A stretch of 58,763 nt of DNA. Origin: a virus. Positions 35,009 through 45,410 of this stretch are shown one piece after another. Both the position numbers and the translations under genes were made by a program. The DNA lies in IMG/VR virus record IMGVR_UViG_3300031673_000048, positions 1-58,763 of that record; one strand, written 5' to 3'. Below the pieces are notes generated by a model that had not been told where the DNA came from, did not search any database, and was given only the letters and a program-made list of their open reading frames with translations. Position 1 is the first letter of the stretch; every line of letters starts with the position of its first letter.

Positions 35009-35470
35009 TCATTTCAAAAGCTTTCGTTCAATTATAAAAATTTGTTTAAGCCCGATATTATAAAAAAAAGATAAACAAAGAGAAGCAAGCTCTGATTCTA
35101 TTGATAGAACTTGCTTCCATTTATCTAATGATCCCGAAACGTAAACTAAACGATAATTCTTTTTTCTAGTTTTTGATATTAAAATCTCTAATCCAGATAA
35201 ATCGAGAAGATCGGCTGCTGGGGCGTAGATAAGGAATGAGAAGAATAAATGCCCCAGCAGCCGATCTGATTGTGATAGAATGGTAGACGGTATTACTATT
35301 TCACCTTTATAGAATTCTGCTAAAGATATGATAGCTCTAGCATGATCATTGAATTTGATTTTACAATTATCAAGAGAAAAAGTTGGAGTATGGCCTGTTA
35401 AATTGGCTACTTCTTTAATGAAGATCGGCCAATTCAGGATAGATGTTCCAATAGGCCACACTCTAATCAT
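35009..35470 (-). CDS. Unknown protein, 153 aa, containing a strong hairpin in its gene
   Basis: MIRVWPIGTSILNWPIFIKE onward; alternating strands and helices, including LDLSGLEILISKTRKKNYRL and LVYVSGSLDKWKQVLS. No motif recognised. The gene contains a perfect 17-bp GC-rich inverted repeat at 35208-35267. Stop and start overlap the neighbouring gene's ATG region (ATGA at 35470). Confidence 0.6.
   Translation of the reverse strand: MIRVWPIGTSILNWPIFIKEVANLTGHTPTFSLDNCKIKFNDHARAIISLAEFYKGEIVIPSTILSQSDRLLGHLFFSFLIYAPAADLLDLSGLEILISKTRKKNYRLVYVSGSLDKWKQVLSIESELASLCLSFFYNIGLKQIFIIERKLLK
35208..35267. repeat. Perfect 17-bp inverted repeat inside a gene
   Basis: Arm AGATCGGCTGCTGGGGC (35208-35224) is the exact reverse complement of 35251-35267, with a 26-base AT-rich loop. 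It is GC-rich against its AT-rich surroundings. As RNA it would form a very stable stem within the open reading frame. Confidence 0.95.
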
Positions 35471-37632: not shown

Positions 37633-38247
37633 AACCGACTCTCCTAAGTGAGAAATGTAAATAGTTTCAAATCGACTGATAATAAAATCAAACTATAACT
37701 AATAATAAAATCAAACTTTTACTAATAATAACAAATTTTCAATGATAATAATATCAATCTCATAAAATCAATATCAAATGACTCAATCCCATAAAATCAA
37801 TATCACTCGACTCTTACTGGTCTACCACTTATACTACGTGTTTTTTGGACATTTTGTCGGCTGAAAATGCCTTGAAAAGTTGTATTTTCATAAATCGTTT
37901 GGTAATAAGAACTTAACAGGAAAACAGGAAATAATTTGATTCCTATATATCCCTTGTGGAACTATTTTTATACTTTTCGATTCCACGAGAGCTAAAAGTT
38001 GTATAAGTTGTAATCTTGTTAAGTTCTTATTGCCAAACGATATAGATTTTATTGAATCTTTATATTATTGTTGCGTAAAGGACTGATTACTATTGTACAA
38101 ACGACTATGGAAAAACGTAGTATAGGTGGGGATTGTCCCGCACGTACACGCGAAAAGAAAGGACTGAAAGCTGCTTTGATATTGATTTTATGAACTTTAA
38201 CCGAATGATTTTGATTTTATTAAACAAGAAACTTTGATTTTATAATC
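37633..38247. promoter_or_regulatory. Divergent control region with nested inverted repeats and 10-mer array
   Basis: No gene. Three nested inverted repeats centre near 37970: outer 37825-37846 with 38111-38129, middle 37894-37918 with 38017-38041 (24 of 25 bases match), inner near 37953-37962 with 37981-37989. The 10-mer TTGATTTTAT occurs four times on the minus strand (37682-37691, 37705-37714, 37762-37771, 37791-37800) and three times on the plus strand (38182-38191, 38211-38220, 38234-38243), always pointing outward. It drives or organises both gene arms and could be an origin. Confidence 0.8.
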
Positions 38248-38795
38248 ATGGCTCAAACTAAAAAAAATGCAGTTGCTGCGGGTTTGTTAAGTCTGTAGAT
38301 GAATTTTATTTCAATAAAACAAGGCAAGATGGCCCGCAGCACTATTGTAAGATTTGTAAAGAAAAGTTAAGAGGGAGGAATAAACAAATTTTATCTACTG
38401 AATACTTACCAAAAGAAAAAAGATGTTCTGTTTGTGATAAAATTAAACAACAAATTGATTTCCATCTTAATACCGGGAAAAAAGATGGGTTAAGTTGTCA
38501 ATGTATTGAATGCTATAAAAAAAGACGAACTTATAATAAACAATATAAAAAATCATATCATCGGTTAAATAAATATGGATTAAATGATTTTCAATATAGT
38601 CAATTATTAGAGAAACAAAATAATGTTTGTGCTATTTGTGGTAAAACAGTTAAATTATATGTTGACCATAATCATAAAACCAATAAAGTAAGAGGATTAC
38701 TTTGTAGCAGTTGTAATAAAATGCTGGGTTTTACAAAAGATAATCCACAAATACTGAGAGACGGTGCTGATTATGCTGGGGATAATATCAAATGA
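38248..38795 (+). pseudogene. Endonuclease VII-like gene, frameshifted in an A8 run
   Basis: ATG 38248 reads MAQTKK, then a run of eight A (38260-38267) puts the rest out of frame. The other frame gives CSCCGFVKSVDEFYFNKTRQ, a second C-x-x-C unit (CSVCDKIK), then VCAICGKTVKLYVDHNHKTN and VRGLLCSSCNKMLGF, the H-x-x-x-x-x-x-R-G-L-L-C-x-x-C-N core of recombination endonuclease VII. It ends in ATGA with the primase gene. Nine or six A would restore it. Confidence 0.75.
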
Positions 38796-41700
38796 GCATT
38801 ACCAAAACTGTAGCAATAAAGAATTTTCTCACCGCTTTCGCCCAACCCGATCTTGCAGAACTATATCACTATGGAATAGAAGTACAGGTTAATGCCGCCC
38901 AAGATGACGGTATACAAATTTCTGGTGATTTTAAGGGTCGGCAATGGAGAGGGTTCACTGATGGAGAAACGACTTGGAAATCTTTCAGAATTCCGTGGAA
39001 GGCAGCAACTAAAGCAGAATATACTGATACTGAACTGAAATGGGATTTGCGTGAGCACACAGAATCAATAGGAATGACTGGGTGGAATTGGGAAAAAAGA
39101 GTATCTAAATGGGTTGGCTTCGATTTTGATTCGGTTATAAGCCATAACGATGGCCTTACCGCAAAAGAATTACAAAATGTAACTAACGCCGCTACCGCGA
39201 TCCCTTGGGTAACTACAAGAAAATCAACCTCTGGGAATGGCCTTCATCTTTACGTTTTTGTTAATGATATTAGAACCAGTAATCATACTGAACACGCTGC
39301 TTTAGCTAGAGCAATTATTGGCAAAATGTCAGCTACAACTGGCTTTGATTTCAATAATCACGTTGATATATGTGGTGGAAATCTTTGGGTTTATCATCGT
39401 AAAATGATTGGGACTGATGGACTTGAATTAATTAAGCAAGGCGATATTTTATATGATATACCACCGAACTGGGAAGATCATATTCCTGTTATAAAAGGTA
39501 GACGTAAAAAGATTCTGCCGAGAGCAGTTAAAGAAGAAACACTTTTCGAGCAACTTACTGGCCAATATAATCATATTAAACTAGATTCTGAGCACCAACG
39601 ATTACTTGATTATCTTGAAGAAAAAGGATCATCTTGGTGGTACGATCAAGATAATAATTTATTAGTATGCCATTCATTCGACCTAAAAGAGGCTCATACT
39701 GATCTTAATCTCAGAGGCTTATACGATACAATAGCCACTGGTAAGGATAGGCCAGATCACAATTGTCTTAGCGGCGATACAGAGATTTTAACATCAACTG
39801 GCCCCCGCCAAATAAAAGATGTTGCCGAAGAAGGGCACGCTGAACTATATGTTTATACGCCTGAAGGTTATAAGTGGGTAGACTGTAAAGTACAATCATT
39901 TGGAAAGCAAACAACTATTCCAATCACATTTGGAAATAATGATACCATTCGTACTACTTTAGACCATGAATGGTTAGTTTATAACGACTCTGCTAAAAAG
40001 AATATTGATATTAATAGAAAAAAGAAGACTTTTGAATTAAGATTGGTTGAAAAAATACCGTTAGCACAATTAGAATTGTCTCCTATAGACTATGAGGGCT
40101 ACGCACATGGATTTGTGTTTGGTGACGGGCATGAAGTCTATGATAAAAGGCACATTAACCCAAAATTAACAACTTCAGTTGTATTATATAAGCATGACCA
40201 AGATTTGTTAAAATTATTTTCACAGTACGGTAATATAGGGTCTCGTATTGTTTCTAATTTTGGCAGAATACCAGAAGTACGCCAATTACCTTGGAATTGG
40301 AAATGCCTACCAAAAAATAAAACTAAGGGCTATGCTCTAGGATTCATTCTGGGGTTAATAAGTGCAGATGGGTCTTTGGATAAAAATTTTGGGCATATAA
40401 GATTAGGCCAAAATAATAAAGAGCACATAATTAAAATAAGAGAATTAGCTATTCACGCAGGACTACGTTGTGGAAAAATACATACACAAGTTTGCGAATC
40501 TGTTAATAGAAAAATAACTTTAAGCTATCGTTTTTCTATAAAATCATATAACTTAACTAAAAAACATTTTTTACGTTTAGATCATCAACAAAGATTTGTC
40601 AATAAAAATAATCAGCTTACAAATGTTAAATATATTGATTTTGATGATAAAATCGAAGAAGAAGTATTTTGTGCTATCGTTCCAAAGTGGCACAATTTTA
40701 CATTAGCCAATGGTATTATTACAGGAAATTGCTTTTGTAAGCCCGCTGAGCATCCTTCTGGGTCATGGGTAGTCCGCCGATTCAGCCAAGGCATACAAGA
40801 GACAGATACTTGGTTTCAAGACAATACTGGTTTTACTTGTACCAACTTCAATAGAGAACCTACTCTCGAAATCGCGGCTAGGACTCATGGTGCAGTTGAA
40901 GACGAGAAAGGTGCATACCATTTTCGTGAAGCCGAGGTTGCTACCACAGCCGTCTCAGCAATTGGAGCACATTTGAATCTACCGAGTTGGGCAGCCAATC
41001 GAAAGGCTACTATTAAAAAACACAAAGACGGGAAAAGAGTTATAGTCTCTATTAAAAGAGAACCGTCTGATAATCCGGTAGAAATGATCGGTTGGAAAGA
41101 AGAAAAAGATTGGTGGAAAAAGATTTTTGATGCTAAACTCCCAAAAGATGAGTCACTTGATAATCAAAATTATGATAGTATTGTTAGACATCTTGTTACA
41201 GTAGAACACCAAGATAGCGGTTGGGTTCTAAATGCTAATGATAATTGGCAAGCAGAGCCACTTAACCATTTACGTATAGCTTTAAAATCATTGGGATTAA
41301 ATGATTTTGAAATCAATAATGCTCTTGGCAAGTGCGTATTGGAAAGCTGGAAACTAGTTAATAAACCCTTTGAGCCTGAGTATCCTGGCAGCCGAGAATG
41401 GAATCGTGACGCTGTTCAATTAAAATACTTACCACAACAAGAAGAGCCGTTCGTACATACTAATTGGGATAGGCTACTCAACCAATGCGGGCACGGCCTT
41501 AACGACGCTGTGACCCGTAATGGTTGGTGCCTAGCCAATGGCATACAAACTGGTGCAGACTATTTGCGATTGTGGATAGCCTCATTATTTCAGTTTCCGA
41601 CTAAACACTTACCGTATTTATTCCTTTACTCTTTAGAACAACAAACAGGTAAAACAACATTACATGAATCATTGAAACTGCTTTTAACATCAAAAGGTTA

Positions 41701-42436
41701 TATGGATGTTAAAGCCGCTCTTATTAGCCAAGCTGGTTTTAATGAGGAAATAAAGAATGCTATAATTTGTGCTGTAGATGAATGCGATCTACGACAGAAT
41801 AAATATGCCTATAATAGAATAAAAGATTGGATCACTGGCGAAGATATTTTAATTCACCCAAAAGGTCGCACCCCATATATGGTGCAAAATATTGCTCATT
41901 TTATTCATACTGGGAATAATCCTAATGAGTTACCTGTATTTAGTGGTGATTCCCGGATTGTGGTAATAAAAGTACCACCAATTGAATTAGAAAAAATGAT
42001 ACCAAAAGATACTTTTCTTAAATTATTAGATAAAGAGGCTCCGGCATTCCTTGCTACTCTTTTCCATATAGATATACCCCCATGTAATGACAGATTAAGT
42101 ATACCTGTTATCGAAACCGAAGAGAAAGAGTTAAGTGCTAAATCTAATCGAAATGCGGTTGAAATATTTCTTGATGAGTGCTGTTACTATTCACCTGGTG
42201 ATAGTGTTCTTTACAGTGATCTTTGGGTACAATTTAATGAATGGCTTGATCCAGGAGAAACCATAGCATGGACTAAAATCAAAATGGGACGAACCCTACC
42301 GTCTATTTATCCGAAAGGTCGTTTAGCTACTGACGGTGGACAATTCCATATAGGTAATATCTCATTCGCTAAACCCGAAAAAATAAAATCGAAAAAATAT
42401 ATCCTTAAAAGCGATAATCTTGCTTTGGAGGATTAA
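38792..42436 (+). CDS. Primase-polymerase/superfamily 3 helicase with an intein
   Basis: 1214 residues including a 322-residue intein (325-646). N-terminal AEP primase: WVGFDFDSV (D-x-D), TRKSTSGNGLHLYVFV (S-G-x-G-L-H) and HVDICGGNLWVYH. After the intein, CFCKPAEHPSGSW may complete a Cys-containing finger. C-terminal helicase: LYSLEQQTGKTTLHESLKLL (Walker A), AIICAVDECDL (Walker B) and IAHFIHTGNNPNELPVFSGD (motif C), then an Arg finger region. It starts and unwinds replication forks. It needs protein splicing to work. Confidence 0.9.
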   Translation: MSITKTVAIKNFLTAFAQPDLAELYHYGIEVQVNAAQDDGIQISGDFKGRQWRGFTDGETTWKSFRIPWKAATKAEYTDTELKWDLREHTESIGMTGWNWEKRVSKWVGFDFDSVISHNDGLTAKELQNVTNAATAIPWVTTRKSTSGNGLHLYVFVNDIRTSNHTEHAALARAIIGKMSATTGFDFNNHVDICGGNLWVYHRKMIGTDGLELIKQGDILYDIPPNWEDHIPVIKGRRKKILPRAVKEETLFEQLTGQYNHIKLDSEHQRLLDYLEEKGSSWWYDQDNNLLVCHSFDLKEAHTDLNLRGLYDTIATGKDRPDHNCLSGDTEILTSTGPRQIKDVAEEGHAELYVYTPEGYKWVDCKVQSFGKQTTIPITFGNNDTIRTTLDHEWLVYNDSAKKNIDINRKKKTFELRLVEKIPLAQLELSPIDYEGYAHGFVFGDGHEVYDKRHINPKLTTSVVLYKHDQDLLKLFSQYGNIGSRIVSNFGRIPEVRQLPWNWKCLPKNKTKGYALGFILGLISADGSLDKNFGHIRLGQNNKEHIIKIRELAIHAGLRCGKIHTQVCESVNRKITLSYRFSIKSYNLTKKHFLRLDHQQRFVNKNNQLTNVKYIDFDDKIEEEVFCAIVPKWHNFTLANGIITGNCFCKPAEHPSGSWVVRRFSQGIQETDTWFQDNTGFTCTNFNREPTLEIAARTHGAVEDEKGAYHFREAEVATTAVSAIGAHLNLPSWAANRKATIKKHKDGKRVIVSIKREPSDNPVEMIGWKEEKDWWKKIFDAKLPKDESLDNQNYDSIVRHLVTVEHQDSGWVLNANDNWQAEPLNHLRIALKSLGLNDFEINNALGKCVLESWKLVNKPFEPEYPGSREWNRDAVQLKYLPQQEEPFVHTNWDRLLNQCGHGLNDAVTRNGWCLANGIQTGADYLRLWIASLFQFPTKHLPYLFLYSLEQQTGKTTLHESLKLLLTSKGYMDVKAALISQAGFNEEIKNAIICAVDECDLRQNKYAYNRIKDWITGEDILIHPKGRTPYMVQNIAHFIHTGNNPNELPVFSGDSRIVVIKVPPIELEKMIPKDTFLKLLDKEAPAFLATLFHIDIPPCNDRLSIPVIETEEKELSAKSNRNAVEIFLDECCYYSPGDSVLYSDLWVQFNEWLDPGETIAWTKIKMGRTLPSIYPKGRLATDGGQFHIGNISFAKPEKIKSKKYILKSDNLALED
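39764..40729 (+). mobile_element. Intein with LAGLIDADG-type homing endonuclease
   Basis: 322 residues from CLSGDTEIL to GIITGN, followed by Cys +1. Block B is RTTLDHEW (T-x-x-H) and the C-terminal splice block KWHNFTLANGIITGN. The middle has two dodecapeptide-like motifs: YAHGFVFGDGHE and YALGFILGLISADGS, the signature of DOD endonucleases. The first lacks a perfect consensus but retains G-D-G. Likely still mobile. Confidence 0.93.
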
Positions 42437-42437
42437 T

Positions 42438-42641
42438 ATGATATTAAAATCAATCATTGACTCATTGAAACCAGAAGATCGAGCACGATTATTTCATGCT
42501 TTTGATCATTATTTCTCCCAGTTTGTTATATTACCTAATAACAAGTTCATAGGCGTCAATATGATTTGCAAATCAAATTTCATCGTTGAAGAACAGGTTG
42601 GTGCTTGGAGTTTTGGGTCAACTATAACTAATGATAACTAA
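42438..42641 (+). CDS. Small unknown protein, 67 aa
   Basis: MILKSIIDSLKPEDRARLFH then AFDHYFSQFVILPNNKFIG. Begins one base after the primase stop with GGAGG nearby. No family recognised. Confidence 0.6.
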   Translation: MILKSIIDSLKPEDRARLFHAFDHYFSQFVILPNNKFIGVNMICKSNFIVEEQVGAWSFGSTITNDN

Positions 42642-42783
42642 AAAGTGTTCAAAATGTGGGACCGTTAAATCAGCCGATGAATTTTATAGAAATTCATCTT
42701 CTATGGATTACTTACAGTCATGTTTCAATGATGATCCAATACTAACAGAAAAGGCATCAAAATACTTATGGGAACACCAATAA
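42631..42783 (+). pseudogene. Endonuclease VII-like gene, internally deleted
   Basis: MITKKCSKCGTVKSADEFYR matches the N-terminal zinc unit of the gene at 44255; the next residues DDPILTEKASKYLWEHQ match the family's C-terminal helix. The catalytic core is missing without loss of reading frame, giving a 50-residue protein that may still bind zinc. Confidence 0.65.
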
Positions 42784-42799
42784 CAAGGGAGAATAATAA

Positions 42800-43360
42800 A
42801 TGATCGTTATCGGATTCGGCTATAAAAAATCGTCAGGCAAATCAACTCTTGCCAAGTTTCTTAGCACTCATATCAATTGTACGCATCCTAAGTTACGAGT
42901 TACTGAGGTCAGTTTCGCGTCAAAGTTAAAGGATATTTCTTTTCAACTTTATGGATGGGCTGGTTTGAAGAGAGCGATTTATTATGAAACTCATTACACT
43001 GATAAAGAGATAATACTTCCATTGATTGGCATGTCGCCAAGAGAAATTTGGATAGGTATTGGTAATTCTCTTAGGGCTGTTTATTCTAATACATGGATAG
43101 ATTATGCTCTCAAAAGTATAAAGAGTGATATTATAATTATTAGTGACATGGGTTTCACTAATGAGGCAAGAGCTATTAGAACTAAAGGTGGCAAACTTAT
43201 TAAGTTAATTAGAGATAATCAACCGAAAGGAACCGATCCACGAGAAGTGGAACTGGATTCTTGGGCTGATTGGGATTTGGTTATTAATAATAATGGATCA
43301 TTAGATGATTTGTACAAACATGCTATAAGAATTTGGGAGAACTTTAATGACACCAAATGA
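42800..43360 (+). CDS. Deoxynucleoside monophosphate kinase
   Basis: 186 residues. GFGYKKSSGKSTLAKFL is the P-loop; VSFASKLKDISFQLYG, then MSPREIWIGIGNSLRAV and IIIISDMGFTNEARAI, follow the layout of phage dNMP kinases (nucleotide-binding A-x-x-L-K and D-x-x-F-x-x-E). It converts dNMPs to dNDPs, feeding Ndk. AAGGGAG precedes the ATG. Confidence 0.8.
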   Translation: MIVIGFGYKKSSGKSTLAKFLSTHINCTHPKLRVTEVSFASKLKDISFQLYGWAGLKRAIYYETHYTDKEIILPLIGMSPREIWIGIGNSLRAVYSNTWIDYALKSIKSDIIIISDMGFTNEARAIRTKGGKLIKLIRDNQPKGTDPREVELDSWADWDLVINNNGSLDDLYKHAIRIWENFNDTK

Positions 43361-43610
43361 TAAAAAAATTAGTAAAATTAAAAAGCCCATTATTACAGAA
43401 GTAAAAGATAATACGCTAGTAACTATTTACTGTGCTGATGGGCCACTAAAAGGTAGCACTCATTCATCAGTAATTAGACGACGAAAAGTGCATATACCAA
43501 TACCAACTAATCCGTTCTATAAAACAGCGTGTTATTTAGTTACCGGGACTCTTACCCCGCTTAATGAACGAATCGCTGTATTTTCCCATTGTCAACGTCG
43601 CGATGGTTAA
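43347..43610 (+). CDS. Small unknown protein, 87 aa
   Basis: MTPNDKKISKIKKPIITEVK, then strands TLVTIYCADGPLKGSTHSSV and ACYLVTGTLTPLNERIAVF. Overlaps the kinase end. Possibly a small beta protein; not recognised. Confidence 0.55.
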   Translation: MTPNDKKISKIKKPIITEVKDNTLVTIYCADGPLKGSTHSSVIRRRKVHIPIPTNPFYKTACYLVTGTLTPLNERIAVFSHCQRRDG

Positions 43611-43716
43611 TTATTTACCAGAATCTAAGAAATGTTCTAAGTGCAAAAGAGTATTACCACAATCTGAATTTTATTTTTGTAAATCAAGCAATTAAATATT
43701 TAAAGGATAAACAATG
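43603..43716 (+). pseudogene. Endonuclease VII-like gene remnant
   Basis: MVNYLPESKKCSKCKRVLPQ, then SEFYFCKSSN and stop at 43695; the next frame gives IKYLKDKQ ending in ATGA with the following gene, matching the family's C-terminal helix (AITYIKEH). All of the middle is deleted. Confidence 0.6.
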
Positions 43717-44268
43717 AATAGATTAAAATTCAATAGGGCTTATCTTTGCGGATCAATGGAAAACAGTCCTGATACTGGTCAAGACTGGCGTATACGATTG
43801 CAAAAAGAATTAGAAGATTTGCAAATAGTGTGGTTAGATCCAACAAACAAGCCATCAGTGCATAGTATAGAAGACGAAAACACTATTGGTTTTCTAAATG
43901 AACTTAGGAATAAAGGCAGTTACGATATTATTAGTGACATTATGCGGCCCATACGAAATATGGATTTACGGCTTGTTGATGTAAGTGATTTTCTTGTAGT
44001 TCATATTGATAATACCATCAATTCTACTGGCACATTTGAAGAACTCTTCTGGGCTAATCGACAGAAAAAGCCGATTATAGTTCATTGTGAGCAAGGCAAA
44101 AAAGCTATAGGACTCTGGTTTTTTGGAACACTATCGCATGAATTATTCTTTGATACTTGGGATGAAGTCTATAACTATATTCGATTAGTTGATAGTGATA
44201 AAGCCAATGTTGATGACAGATGGAAGTTCTTTGATTTTAAACTCTGTGGGAAAAATGATGGTAAATAA
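43714..44268 (+). CDS. Nucleoside 2-deoxyribosyltransferase-like protein
   Basis: 184 residues. RAYLCGSMENSPDTGQDWR, then IVWLDPTN, RNMDLRLVDVSDFLVVHID and STGTFEELFWANRQKKPIIV match the family: an N-terminal Y-L-x-G nucleotide loop, a D-x-x-x-x-x-x-D segment, and the G-T-x-x-E catalytic Glu region. Such enzymes exchange bases on deoxyribose or hydrolyse deoxynucleotides. AAAGGAT precedes the ATG. Confidence 0.75.
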   Translation: MNRLKFNRAYLCGSMENSPDTGQDWRIRLQKELEDLQIVWLDPTNKPSVHSIEDENTIGFLNELRNKGSYDIISDIMRPIRNMDLRLVDVSDFLVVHIDNTINSTGTFEELFWANRQKKPIIVHCEQGKKAIGLWFFGTLSHELFFDTWDEVYNYIRLVDSDKANVDDRWKFFDFKLCGKNDGK

Positions 44269-44809
44269 AGTATGCTCCAGTTGTGGTTTAACGAAATTAG
44301 TAAATGAATTTTATAAGGATTCGTCAACAAAATATGGGTATAAATGTTACTGTAAAGATTGCGATAGATTAAAAAGAAACCATAAGAAGCGTACTAATAG
44401 TAGTTATTTACCAATAAAAAAGAAATGTTCAAAATGTGGTTCAATAAAACTACAATCAGAATTTGCCTTTGCTAGTATAAATAGTACAGGATTATACAGT
44501 TGGTGCAAGCAATGTGTCGCCAATTCTCAGAAAGATCACAGTCTTCGCTCTCGTTACGGGATTACAGAGAAAGAATATAATAATTTATTAGTGCAGCAAC
44601 AATGTGTTTGTGTTATTTGTGCTAAAAAGGAAATATCTAAGCACCAAAATGGCAATATTAAAGAATTAGCAGTGGATCACAACCATGTAACTAATGAAAT
44701 CCGTGGACTATTATGCCAAAAATGTAATACGATATTGGGTCTTTGTAATGAGGACATTAATATTCTAGAAAGTGCAATTACATACATAAAGGAGCACAGT
44801 CATAGCTAA
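44255..44809 (+). CDS. Endonuclease VII-like recombination/homing nuclease, intact
   Basis: 184 residues from ATG 44255 (a second ATG follows). Two zinc units, CSSCGLTKLVNEFYKDSSTK and CSKCGSIKLQSEF with their CKDC/CKQC partners, precede the endonuclease VII core VCVICAKKE and LAVDHNHVTNEIRGLLCQKC-N. It is the complete member of a four-gene series. It overlaps the preceding gene by 14 bases. Confidence 0.85.
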   Translation: MMVNKVCSSCGLTKLVNEFYKDSSTKYGYKCYCKDCDRLKRNHKKRTNSSYLPIKKKCSKCGSIKLQSEFAFASINSTGLYSWCKQCVANSQKDHSLRSRYGITEKEYNNLLVQQQCVCVICAKKEISKHQNGNIKELAVDHNHVTNEIRGLLCQKCNTILGLCNEDINILESAITYIKEHSHS

Positions 44810-45410
44810 ATCATCAGTACACTTGAACGGAAATCTTTTATGCGCAGTCGACGTTGAAACAACAGGACTATGTGCTGGATTCCATGAAATATGGCAGTTA
44901 GCTATACTGCCATTAGATTCGGCATATAAACCGTCCAAAGAATTTGCCCCATTCTATCAGGAAATGCGTATACAATATCCTGATCGAATAGACAGCAAAG
45001 CTATAAAACTCAGCCGCAATAATTTTGCTTTAAAACAGCAAAGAGCATTAGATCCATTCACTTGTGCAGATATGTTTGAGGAATGGTTTCATAAACTGGA
45101 CCTACCAATTTATAAGAGAATCGTACCACTAGCACATAATTGGCCTTTTGATAGATCATTTTTATTAGATTGGTTAGGCGAAGCATCATTTTTTGATTTC
45201 TTTCATGCACACTACCGTGACTCAATGGCAGCAGCTATTTTCTTAATGGATTTAGCAAACTATAAATGTGACCAAGTAACATTAGCTAAATTCAGTTTAG
45301 CGTCAATGTGTGGTAAATTTAATGTAACTAATATGAAAGCTCACGATGCACTTCAAGACTGTATAGCTACAGCAGAAGTATATCGACGATTGTTAGGATT
45401 TGCTTCTTGA
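44802..45410 (+). CDS. DnaQ-like 3'-5' exonuclease
   Basis: About 202 residues. AVDVETTGLCAGFHEIWQLA is Exo I (D-x-E), LAHNWPFDRSFLL Exo II, and AHDALQDCIATAEVYRRLL Exo III (H-x-x-x-x-D). The strong AAAGGAG at 44788-44794 is seven bases before ATA 44802; translation from there (AKSSVHLNGNLLC) seems likelier than the TTG at 44823, which has no ribosome site. Proofreading or end-trimming role with the phage polymerase. Confidence 0.85.
   Translation: MAKSSVHLNGNLLCAVDVETTGLCAGFHEIWQLAILPLDSAYKPSKEFAPFYQEMRIQYPDRIDSKAIKLSRNNFALKQQRALDPFTCADMFEEWFHKLDLPIYKRIVPLAHNWPFDRSFLLDWLGEASFFDFFHAHYRDSMAAAIFLMDLANYKCDQVTLAKFSLASMCGKFNVTNMKAHDALQDCIATAEVYRRLLGFAS

Follow-up and report, generated by a model that had tools for sequence, protein, structure and literature searches.

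Here, we describe four traces of endonuclease VII (endo VII) genes in an uncultured phage record from IMG/VR (IMGVR_UViG_3300031673_000048). The window, by which we mean the whole stretch analysed, is 58,763 bases long, and all four traces lie at gene borders of a single plus-strand replication operon. Probably, free-standing endo VII genes of the homing type inserted there on separate occasions and now stand in different states. A preliminary description of this DNA had proposed that such genes inserted repeatedly at gene boundaries and then lost their catalytic core by deletion. This reading is well supported, in that the borders are empty or filled in relatives and one junction in Kayfunavirus displays every step. 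The argument draws on the anatomy of the traces, on the empty and occupied borders, and on the full Kayfunavirus cycle with its one exact deletion. We regard the operon as a clear case of an already known process.

The four traces and their operon

The operon runs from an intein-containing primase/helicase gene through the small open reading frame (ORF) g42438, DNMK, the small ORF g43347 and NDT to RNaseT, and the nearest cultured relatives of its primase are only about 25% identical. The traces stand before the primase gene and at the g42438/DNMK, g43347/NDT and NDT/RNaseT borders. All four features of the preliminary description are present, and a six-frame profile scan (88,343 peptides from all loci and the window) yielded no further significant endo VII-type zinc-ribbon match in the window. 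The profile scan replaced a strict regular-expression scan for short forms, which found only one in Kayfunavirus and missed the window's own. The features are as follows.

38248-38795, plus strand: full-length endo VII, frameshifted (PF02945, profile scan)
38792-42436, plus strand: primase/helicase gene, interrupted by an intein
42438-42641, plus strand: g42438, small conserved ORF of 67 amino acids; its stop codon lies within the first codons of the 42631 remnant
42631-42783, plus strand: endo VII with an in-frame internal deletion, 50 amino acids (profiles, PHROGs)
42800-43360, plus strand: DNMK, deoxynucleotide monophosphate kinase
43347-43610, plus strand: g43347, small conserved ORF of 87 amino acids; its stop codon lies within the start of the 43603 remnant
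43603-43717, plus strand: endo VII remnant with both ends, out of frame (repeat D1, profiles, PHROGs)
43714-44268, plus strand: NDT, nucleoside 2-deoxyribosyltransferase-like gene (below the Pfam cut-off)
44255-44809, plus strand: intact endo VII-type nuclease, 184 amino acids (PF02945, Hpy99I match)
44802-45410, plus strand: RNaseT, RNase T/DnaQ-like exonuclease gene

ATGA-like junctions had been ascribed to all of the traces. Most ends do have an ATG/stop overlap, but a gap of 16 nucleotides (nt) separates the end of 42631-42783 from the following ATG, and at the end of the intact copy the overlapped codon is ATA rather than ATG.

Matches to the Pfam family Endonuclease_7 (PF02945) in the window are limited to the two full copies, with 76 bits for the frame that opens at 38268 and 73.4-75.6 bits for the copy at 44255 (cut-off 23.6); both short forms score none. 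In the profile scan the E values are 1.2e-13 for the 38268 frame and 8.8e-15 and 2.7e-17 for the two ribbons of the intact copy. Both full copies contain VDHNH...R...CxxCN, that is, the D-H-H-R-N catalytic residues flanked by CxxC pairs. The intact copy joins two zinc ribbons to these residues, and its C-terminal end carries the AAGGAG for the next gene; a search for relatives with this copy gave 12 pattern matches, none of which was confirmed as a relative. The copy at 38248-38795 has a lone frameshift, at a run of eight A residues (A8, 38260-38267) after the first codons, and the open frame from 38268 to 38795 (175 codons) retains two zinc ribbons and D-H-H-R-N and ends in a stop codon that overlaps the primase ATG (ATGA). 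This copy had been listed as frameshifted and decayed. The frameshift is there, but "decayed" is too strong a word, because the lesion is single, the other codons are open and the catalytic residues are kept.

The two short forms keep the ends of an endo VII gene. In 42631-42783, an N-terminal half ribbon with one CxxC is fused in frame to a C-terminal helix-like end, and the two ends score 38.2 and 4.6 bits, respectively, against the terminal profiles (shuffle maximum for the C end, 4.1). The other form had been described as a shorter remnant at 43603-43716. It is indeed a remnant of endo VII, but it consists of a 30-amino-acid ORF with one CxxC (43603-43695) plus a C-terminal piece in another frame (about 43679-43717), (V)NQAIKYLKDKQ, whose stop overlaps the next ATG; its ends score 24.6 and 11.9 bits (shuffle maximum for the C end, 7.3). 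Among 1000 shuffles of each form, none reached the score of either end. The N- and C-terminal profiles were built with the window's own full copies included, after 7 N-terminal and 5 C-terminal rows (duplicates, core or divergent matches) had been removed and 4 loci excluded from the C set. In the profile scan the E values are 2.1e-9 for the 42631 form and 3.6e-4 for the 43603 form, and PHROGs, an independent library of virus protein families, names both as endo VII (E 1.3e-4 and 1.4e-3). Because they lack the domain, we count the short forms as remnants and not as PF02945 members. Each has one CxxC and one stray Cys, in place of the four cysteines of a two-knuckle ribbon.

The preliminary description gave all four traces a common CxxC start. 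The 43603 start resembles that of a single-ribbon endo VII in a related phage (L115; MIYLPKTKKCRKC) and the second ribbon of the window copies, but not their first ribbon. A derivation of this remnant from a form that had lost its first ribbon was considered and dropped, since L115 has a single-ribbon start naturally.

The same borders in related phages

Relatives came from four IMG/VR scans with DNMK, primase and RNaseT proteins or alignments, plus one with NDT. Sorting the loci that have primase or RNaseT gave 132 groups, counting the window; 110 of the groups have both genes, and loci with neither were left out. Endo VII matches by tblastn lie inside the operon in 5 of the 131 relative groups (L081, L084, L110, L115 and L130), and the number rises to 7 of 131 with L047 and L117, where parts of endo VII were found by reading ORFs. 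Endo VII or its parts thus occur in relatives at three of the window's four junctions, and the junctions of other relatives are empty. The gene stands directly before the primase in L110, directly before DNMK in L081 (frameshifted), directly before RNaseT in L115 and shortly before RNaseT in L084; in L130 its C-terminal half remains. At the g42438/DNMK border L047 has a ribbon-only ORF of 51 amino acids, with both knuckles of one ribbon and without the nuclease domain, which does not closely match the window's short form. L117 has an endo VII-like ORF of 95 amino acids after the primase (L117:707-994), in which the cysteine pairs of the nuclease zinc site are kept and the catalytic loop is missing. 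We consider the latter a candidate domesticated DNA-binding protein, and a better place to look for one than the window's short forms. In addition, L163 has an endo VII-like start with a nonsense codon (L163:252-371), near the edge of its stretch.

At the g43347/NDT border, no endo VII was found among the relatives, and L003 has a different ORF of 45 amino acids there. The same locus has five tandem small ORFs at its NDT/RNaseT border (L003:8417-9276), of two alternating types and with ends that mostly overlap or abut. The g42438/DNMK border could be measured in 13 other groups; it is empty (0-12 nt) in 7 and holds ORFs in 6. The same junctions without inserts, one of the checks named in the preliminary description, are therefore found in related phages, and others are filled with different small genes or endo VII. 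The outcome that it named as contrary, short forms that are independent conserved genes, was not seen at these junctions in the 13 other measurable g42438/DNMK gaps.

A complete series of alleles in Kayfunavirus

Kayfunavirus is a genus of better-sampled phages of gut bacteria. With the 42631 short form as query, tblastn picked out an annotated ORF of 35 amino acids in Salmonella phage CHRF_10023.2, the ends of which are 95% identical to the full endo VII genes of CHRF_10037, CHRF_20041 and IMM-002. Compared with CHRF_10037, CHRF_10023.2 has lost 315 nt, in frame, between two copies of CCAGTTC (7-bp direct repeats); in the flanks, the two phages differ at 2 of 289 nt upstream of the deletion and at 9 of 1400 nt downstream of it. 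The resulting short form retains a single CxxC of the four-cysteine ribbon. A deletion with the repeat at both break points and one copy left behind was found in Kayfunavirus only.

The border concerned adjoins the RNA polymerase gene, and other phages supply the remaining states. In ST57 and Pisces it is empty, and the downstream gene begins at the ATG that is elsewhere occupied by endo VII; this gene has 108 codons in the empty allele versus 83 in the occupied one. CHRF_10022 carries a frameshifted endo VII, AN24P4 keeps both ends around an out-of-frame internal deletion, and KE14, KE18, ST20, KE05 and CR44b have the 3' end only. Monomax and Seyj3-1 bear a scar, with endo VII gone and the shortened downstream start kept. 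Most of these alleles come from one search with 222 matching records, and rest on part of 60 of them. The Kayfunavirus junction displays the whole cycle: empty, occupied, frameshifted, in-frame deletion, out-of-frame deletion, 3' end only, and scar.

Why are the ends kept?

In the mechanism that we propose, a nuclease gene would insert where the stop codon of one gene meets the start of the next, replacing that start with its own ATG, and so would be translated with the operon. The 3' end of the insert would either bring along or leave in place a ribosome-binding site and a start codon for the gene that follows. With the insert settled, the nuclease would no longer be needed, and frameshifts as well as internal deletions between short direct repeats could wear it down. 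These deletions could remove the catalytic core freely but would spare the outermost sequence, because it holds the stop codon of the upstream gene and, in many cases, the ribosome-binding site of the downstream one.

The positions of these signals are consistent with the proposal. In Kayfunavirus, the 3' end of endo VII contains the AGGAG-like ribosome-binding site for the following gene, and all 9 of the alleles compared, each with endo VII sequence, keep it. In the window, such a site occupies the last endo VII codons before primase, NDT and RNaseT, and the same is true in L110, L081 and L115, extending into the stop codon in L115. At the other end, each of the window inserts at 42631, 43603 and 44255 has the stop codon of the preceding gene within its start. 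The ends would thus survive mainly because the neighbours use the upstream stop codon and the downstream ribosome-binding site, with 42631-42783 as the exception, and we infer that end retention is explained by the translation of neighbouring genes.

A broader version of this idea can be offered tentatively. On insertion, the nuclease gene may displace the start of the following gene and provide that gene's translation start region from its own last codons; the body of the nuclease would then be dispensable, and the ends would not. Short ORFs made up of such ends would build up in phage genomes, as translation scars and not as small functional proteins. On the same tentative footing, about 25 codons of the gene next to the Kayfunavirus insertion would have been exchanged for a new start, which would outlast the nuclease even in alleles that have lost it.

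Points against and other explanations

Several results weigh against separate insertion followed by core loss, or against parts of it. The C-terminal assignment of 42631-42783 is weak: its match taken alone scores 4.6 bits, and blastp gives 41% identity over 17 amino acids (E 0.056). A full-length parent was found for neither of the window remnants. Five of the six occupied g42438/DNMK borders contain unrelated, non-endo VII ORFs, and such borders are therefore general insertion spots. A nuclease tree of 25 rows does not group the copies by junction; 3 of its 22 inner branches are well supported, the L110 row is very long, and 5 loci were omitted. The DNMK ribosome-binding site lies after the 42631-42783 remnant, and thus outside it, and resembles that of the empty L004 border. 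The ribosome-binding-site argument therefore fails at this border, and we gave up a general rule by which all 3' ends would be retained to serve the translation of the following gene. Arrival by homing, for its part, is inferred from family membership and variable presence, and the deletion mechanism seen in Kayfunavirus would have made the window remnants as well.

Could the four traces instead have arisen by tandem duplication within this genome? All are confined to a single stretch of 6.6 kb in the window, which would fit such an origin. However, at 35% identity over 179 amino acids the two full copies are too different to be recent duplicates, and a recent tandem duplication was rejected. 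The 43603 start, moreover, is nearest to the single-ribbon form of L115, whereas the full copies have two ribbons, and relatives have single copies at differing borders. Duplication is thus an unlikely source of the four traces. Still less likely, in our judgement, is the suggestion in the preliminary description that the short forms persist as immunity factors or zinc-finger repressors, in which case they would be small zinc-ribbon proteins with the task of repressing or blocking the intact enzyme. The 42631-42783 form is open and in frame, and its start overlaps the upstream gene, and the relatives offer better candidates in L047 (both knuckles) and L117 (catalytic loop gone). Yet both window forms, like that of CHRF_10023.2, have a single CxxC knuckle where a ribbon needs two, the 43603 form goes out of frame after its ribbon half, and a conserved counterpart is absent from the 13 other measurable g42438/DNMK borders. 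There is also a simpler reason for the surviving ends, because they overlap the stop codons and ribosome-binding sites of neighbours.

The frameshifted copy at 38248 may possibly still work. Ribosomal or transcriptional slippage on the A8 run, or an assembly error in that run, would yield a full protein; we consider this a reasonable possibility, if not the expected one. The sole lesion falls at one of the window's two longest A or T runs, in front of 175 otherwise open codons with the catalytic residues complete. The run alone tells little, because another eight-base A/T run exists at 35062, and the C-terminal end of this copy (GADYAGDNIK) diverges from the family.

Other features of the operon

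At 44802-44804, the position of the ATG start codon of RNaseT in L003 and L115, the window reads ATA, and a good ribosome-binding site lies upstream of it. Either ATA serves as a rare start codon or the gene may have been weakened after insertion. The primase intein contains a LAGLIDADG-like domain (about 39763-40732) and separates the primase halves by 973 nt; the halves are more than 400 nt apart in 5 of 116 groups (the window, L184, L186, L189 and L104). From the ParB-like gene to the primase (37677-38250), a motif like TGATAATAAAATCAAA is repeated on both strands, and L003 has a similar TGATTATAAAATC stretch. The repeats are possibly operators or binding sites.

Relation to known systems

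DHHRN nucleases are homing enzymes, and F-CphI has an assayed cut site in psbA (PMC6083498). The copies described here share with F-CphI the D-H-H-R-N residues between CxxC pairs, the C-terminal position of the nuclease domain and the status of a free-standing phage gene. They differ in that cutting was assayed for F-CphI, whereas the present copies are known from sequence, lie in a replication operon and have zinc ribbons in front. The nearest solved sequence to the intact copy is the restriction endonuclease Hpy99I (PDB 3fc3, 3gox; residues 55-181, E 1.5e-5); unlike the case of a restriction enzyme, no methylase was identified in this operon, the rest of the window not having been searched for one.

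Graded decay and truncation of free-standing HNN-AP2 genes have been described in Xanthomonas oryzae phages (PMC2248197), and truncated HNH genes (56 of 268) in Skunavirus (PMC12724721). In both, as in the window, nuclease genes at different stages of loss share one genome; the families are different, and the retention of both ends at start/stop borders is the feature seen here. The homing nuclease genes of ICP1 show frameshifts and an in-frame deletion between internal repeats, although gp174 lost a DNA-binding repeat and not the catalytic core (PMC10448857). Free-standing seg and mob genes of T4 have start/stop overlaps with the upstream gene, and embedded signals of the downstream gene favour their retention (PMC2988022). 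Both properties resemble those of the window and Kayfunavirus inserts, but the embedded T4 signals are promoters, whereas here they are ribosome-binding sites that outlast the nuclease. A Hafnia phage related to Kayfunavirus has a polymorphic deletion of 397 bp in an HNH gene (PMC8861465). Our literature search, which covered open-licence papers, found no paper on end-retaining endo VII remnants.

Phage genomes contain many tiny unexplained ORFs between core genes, and some of these are recognisable as the worn ends of nuclease genes. An endo VII ribbon start together with a YL-type C-terminal end at start/stop borders is the sign by which such a remnant may be told from a small functional protein. 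The Kayfunavirus alleles, whether empty, occupied, deleted or scarred, lie in near-identical flanks, so that laboratory phages could be used to test how the gene inserts, how it is lost and what its loss costs.

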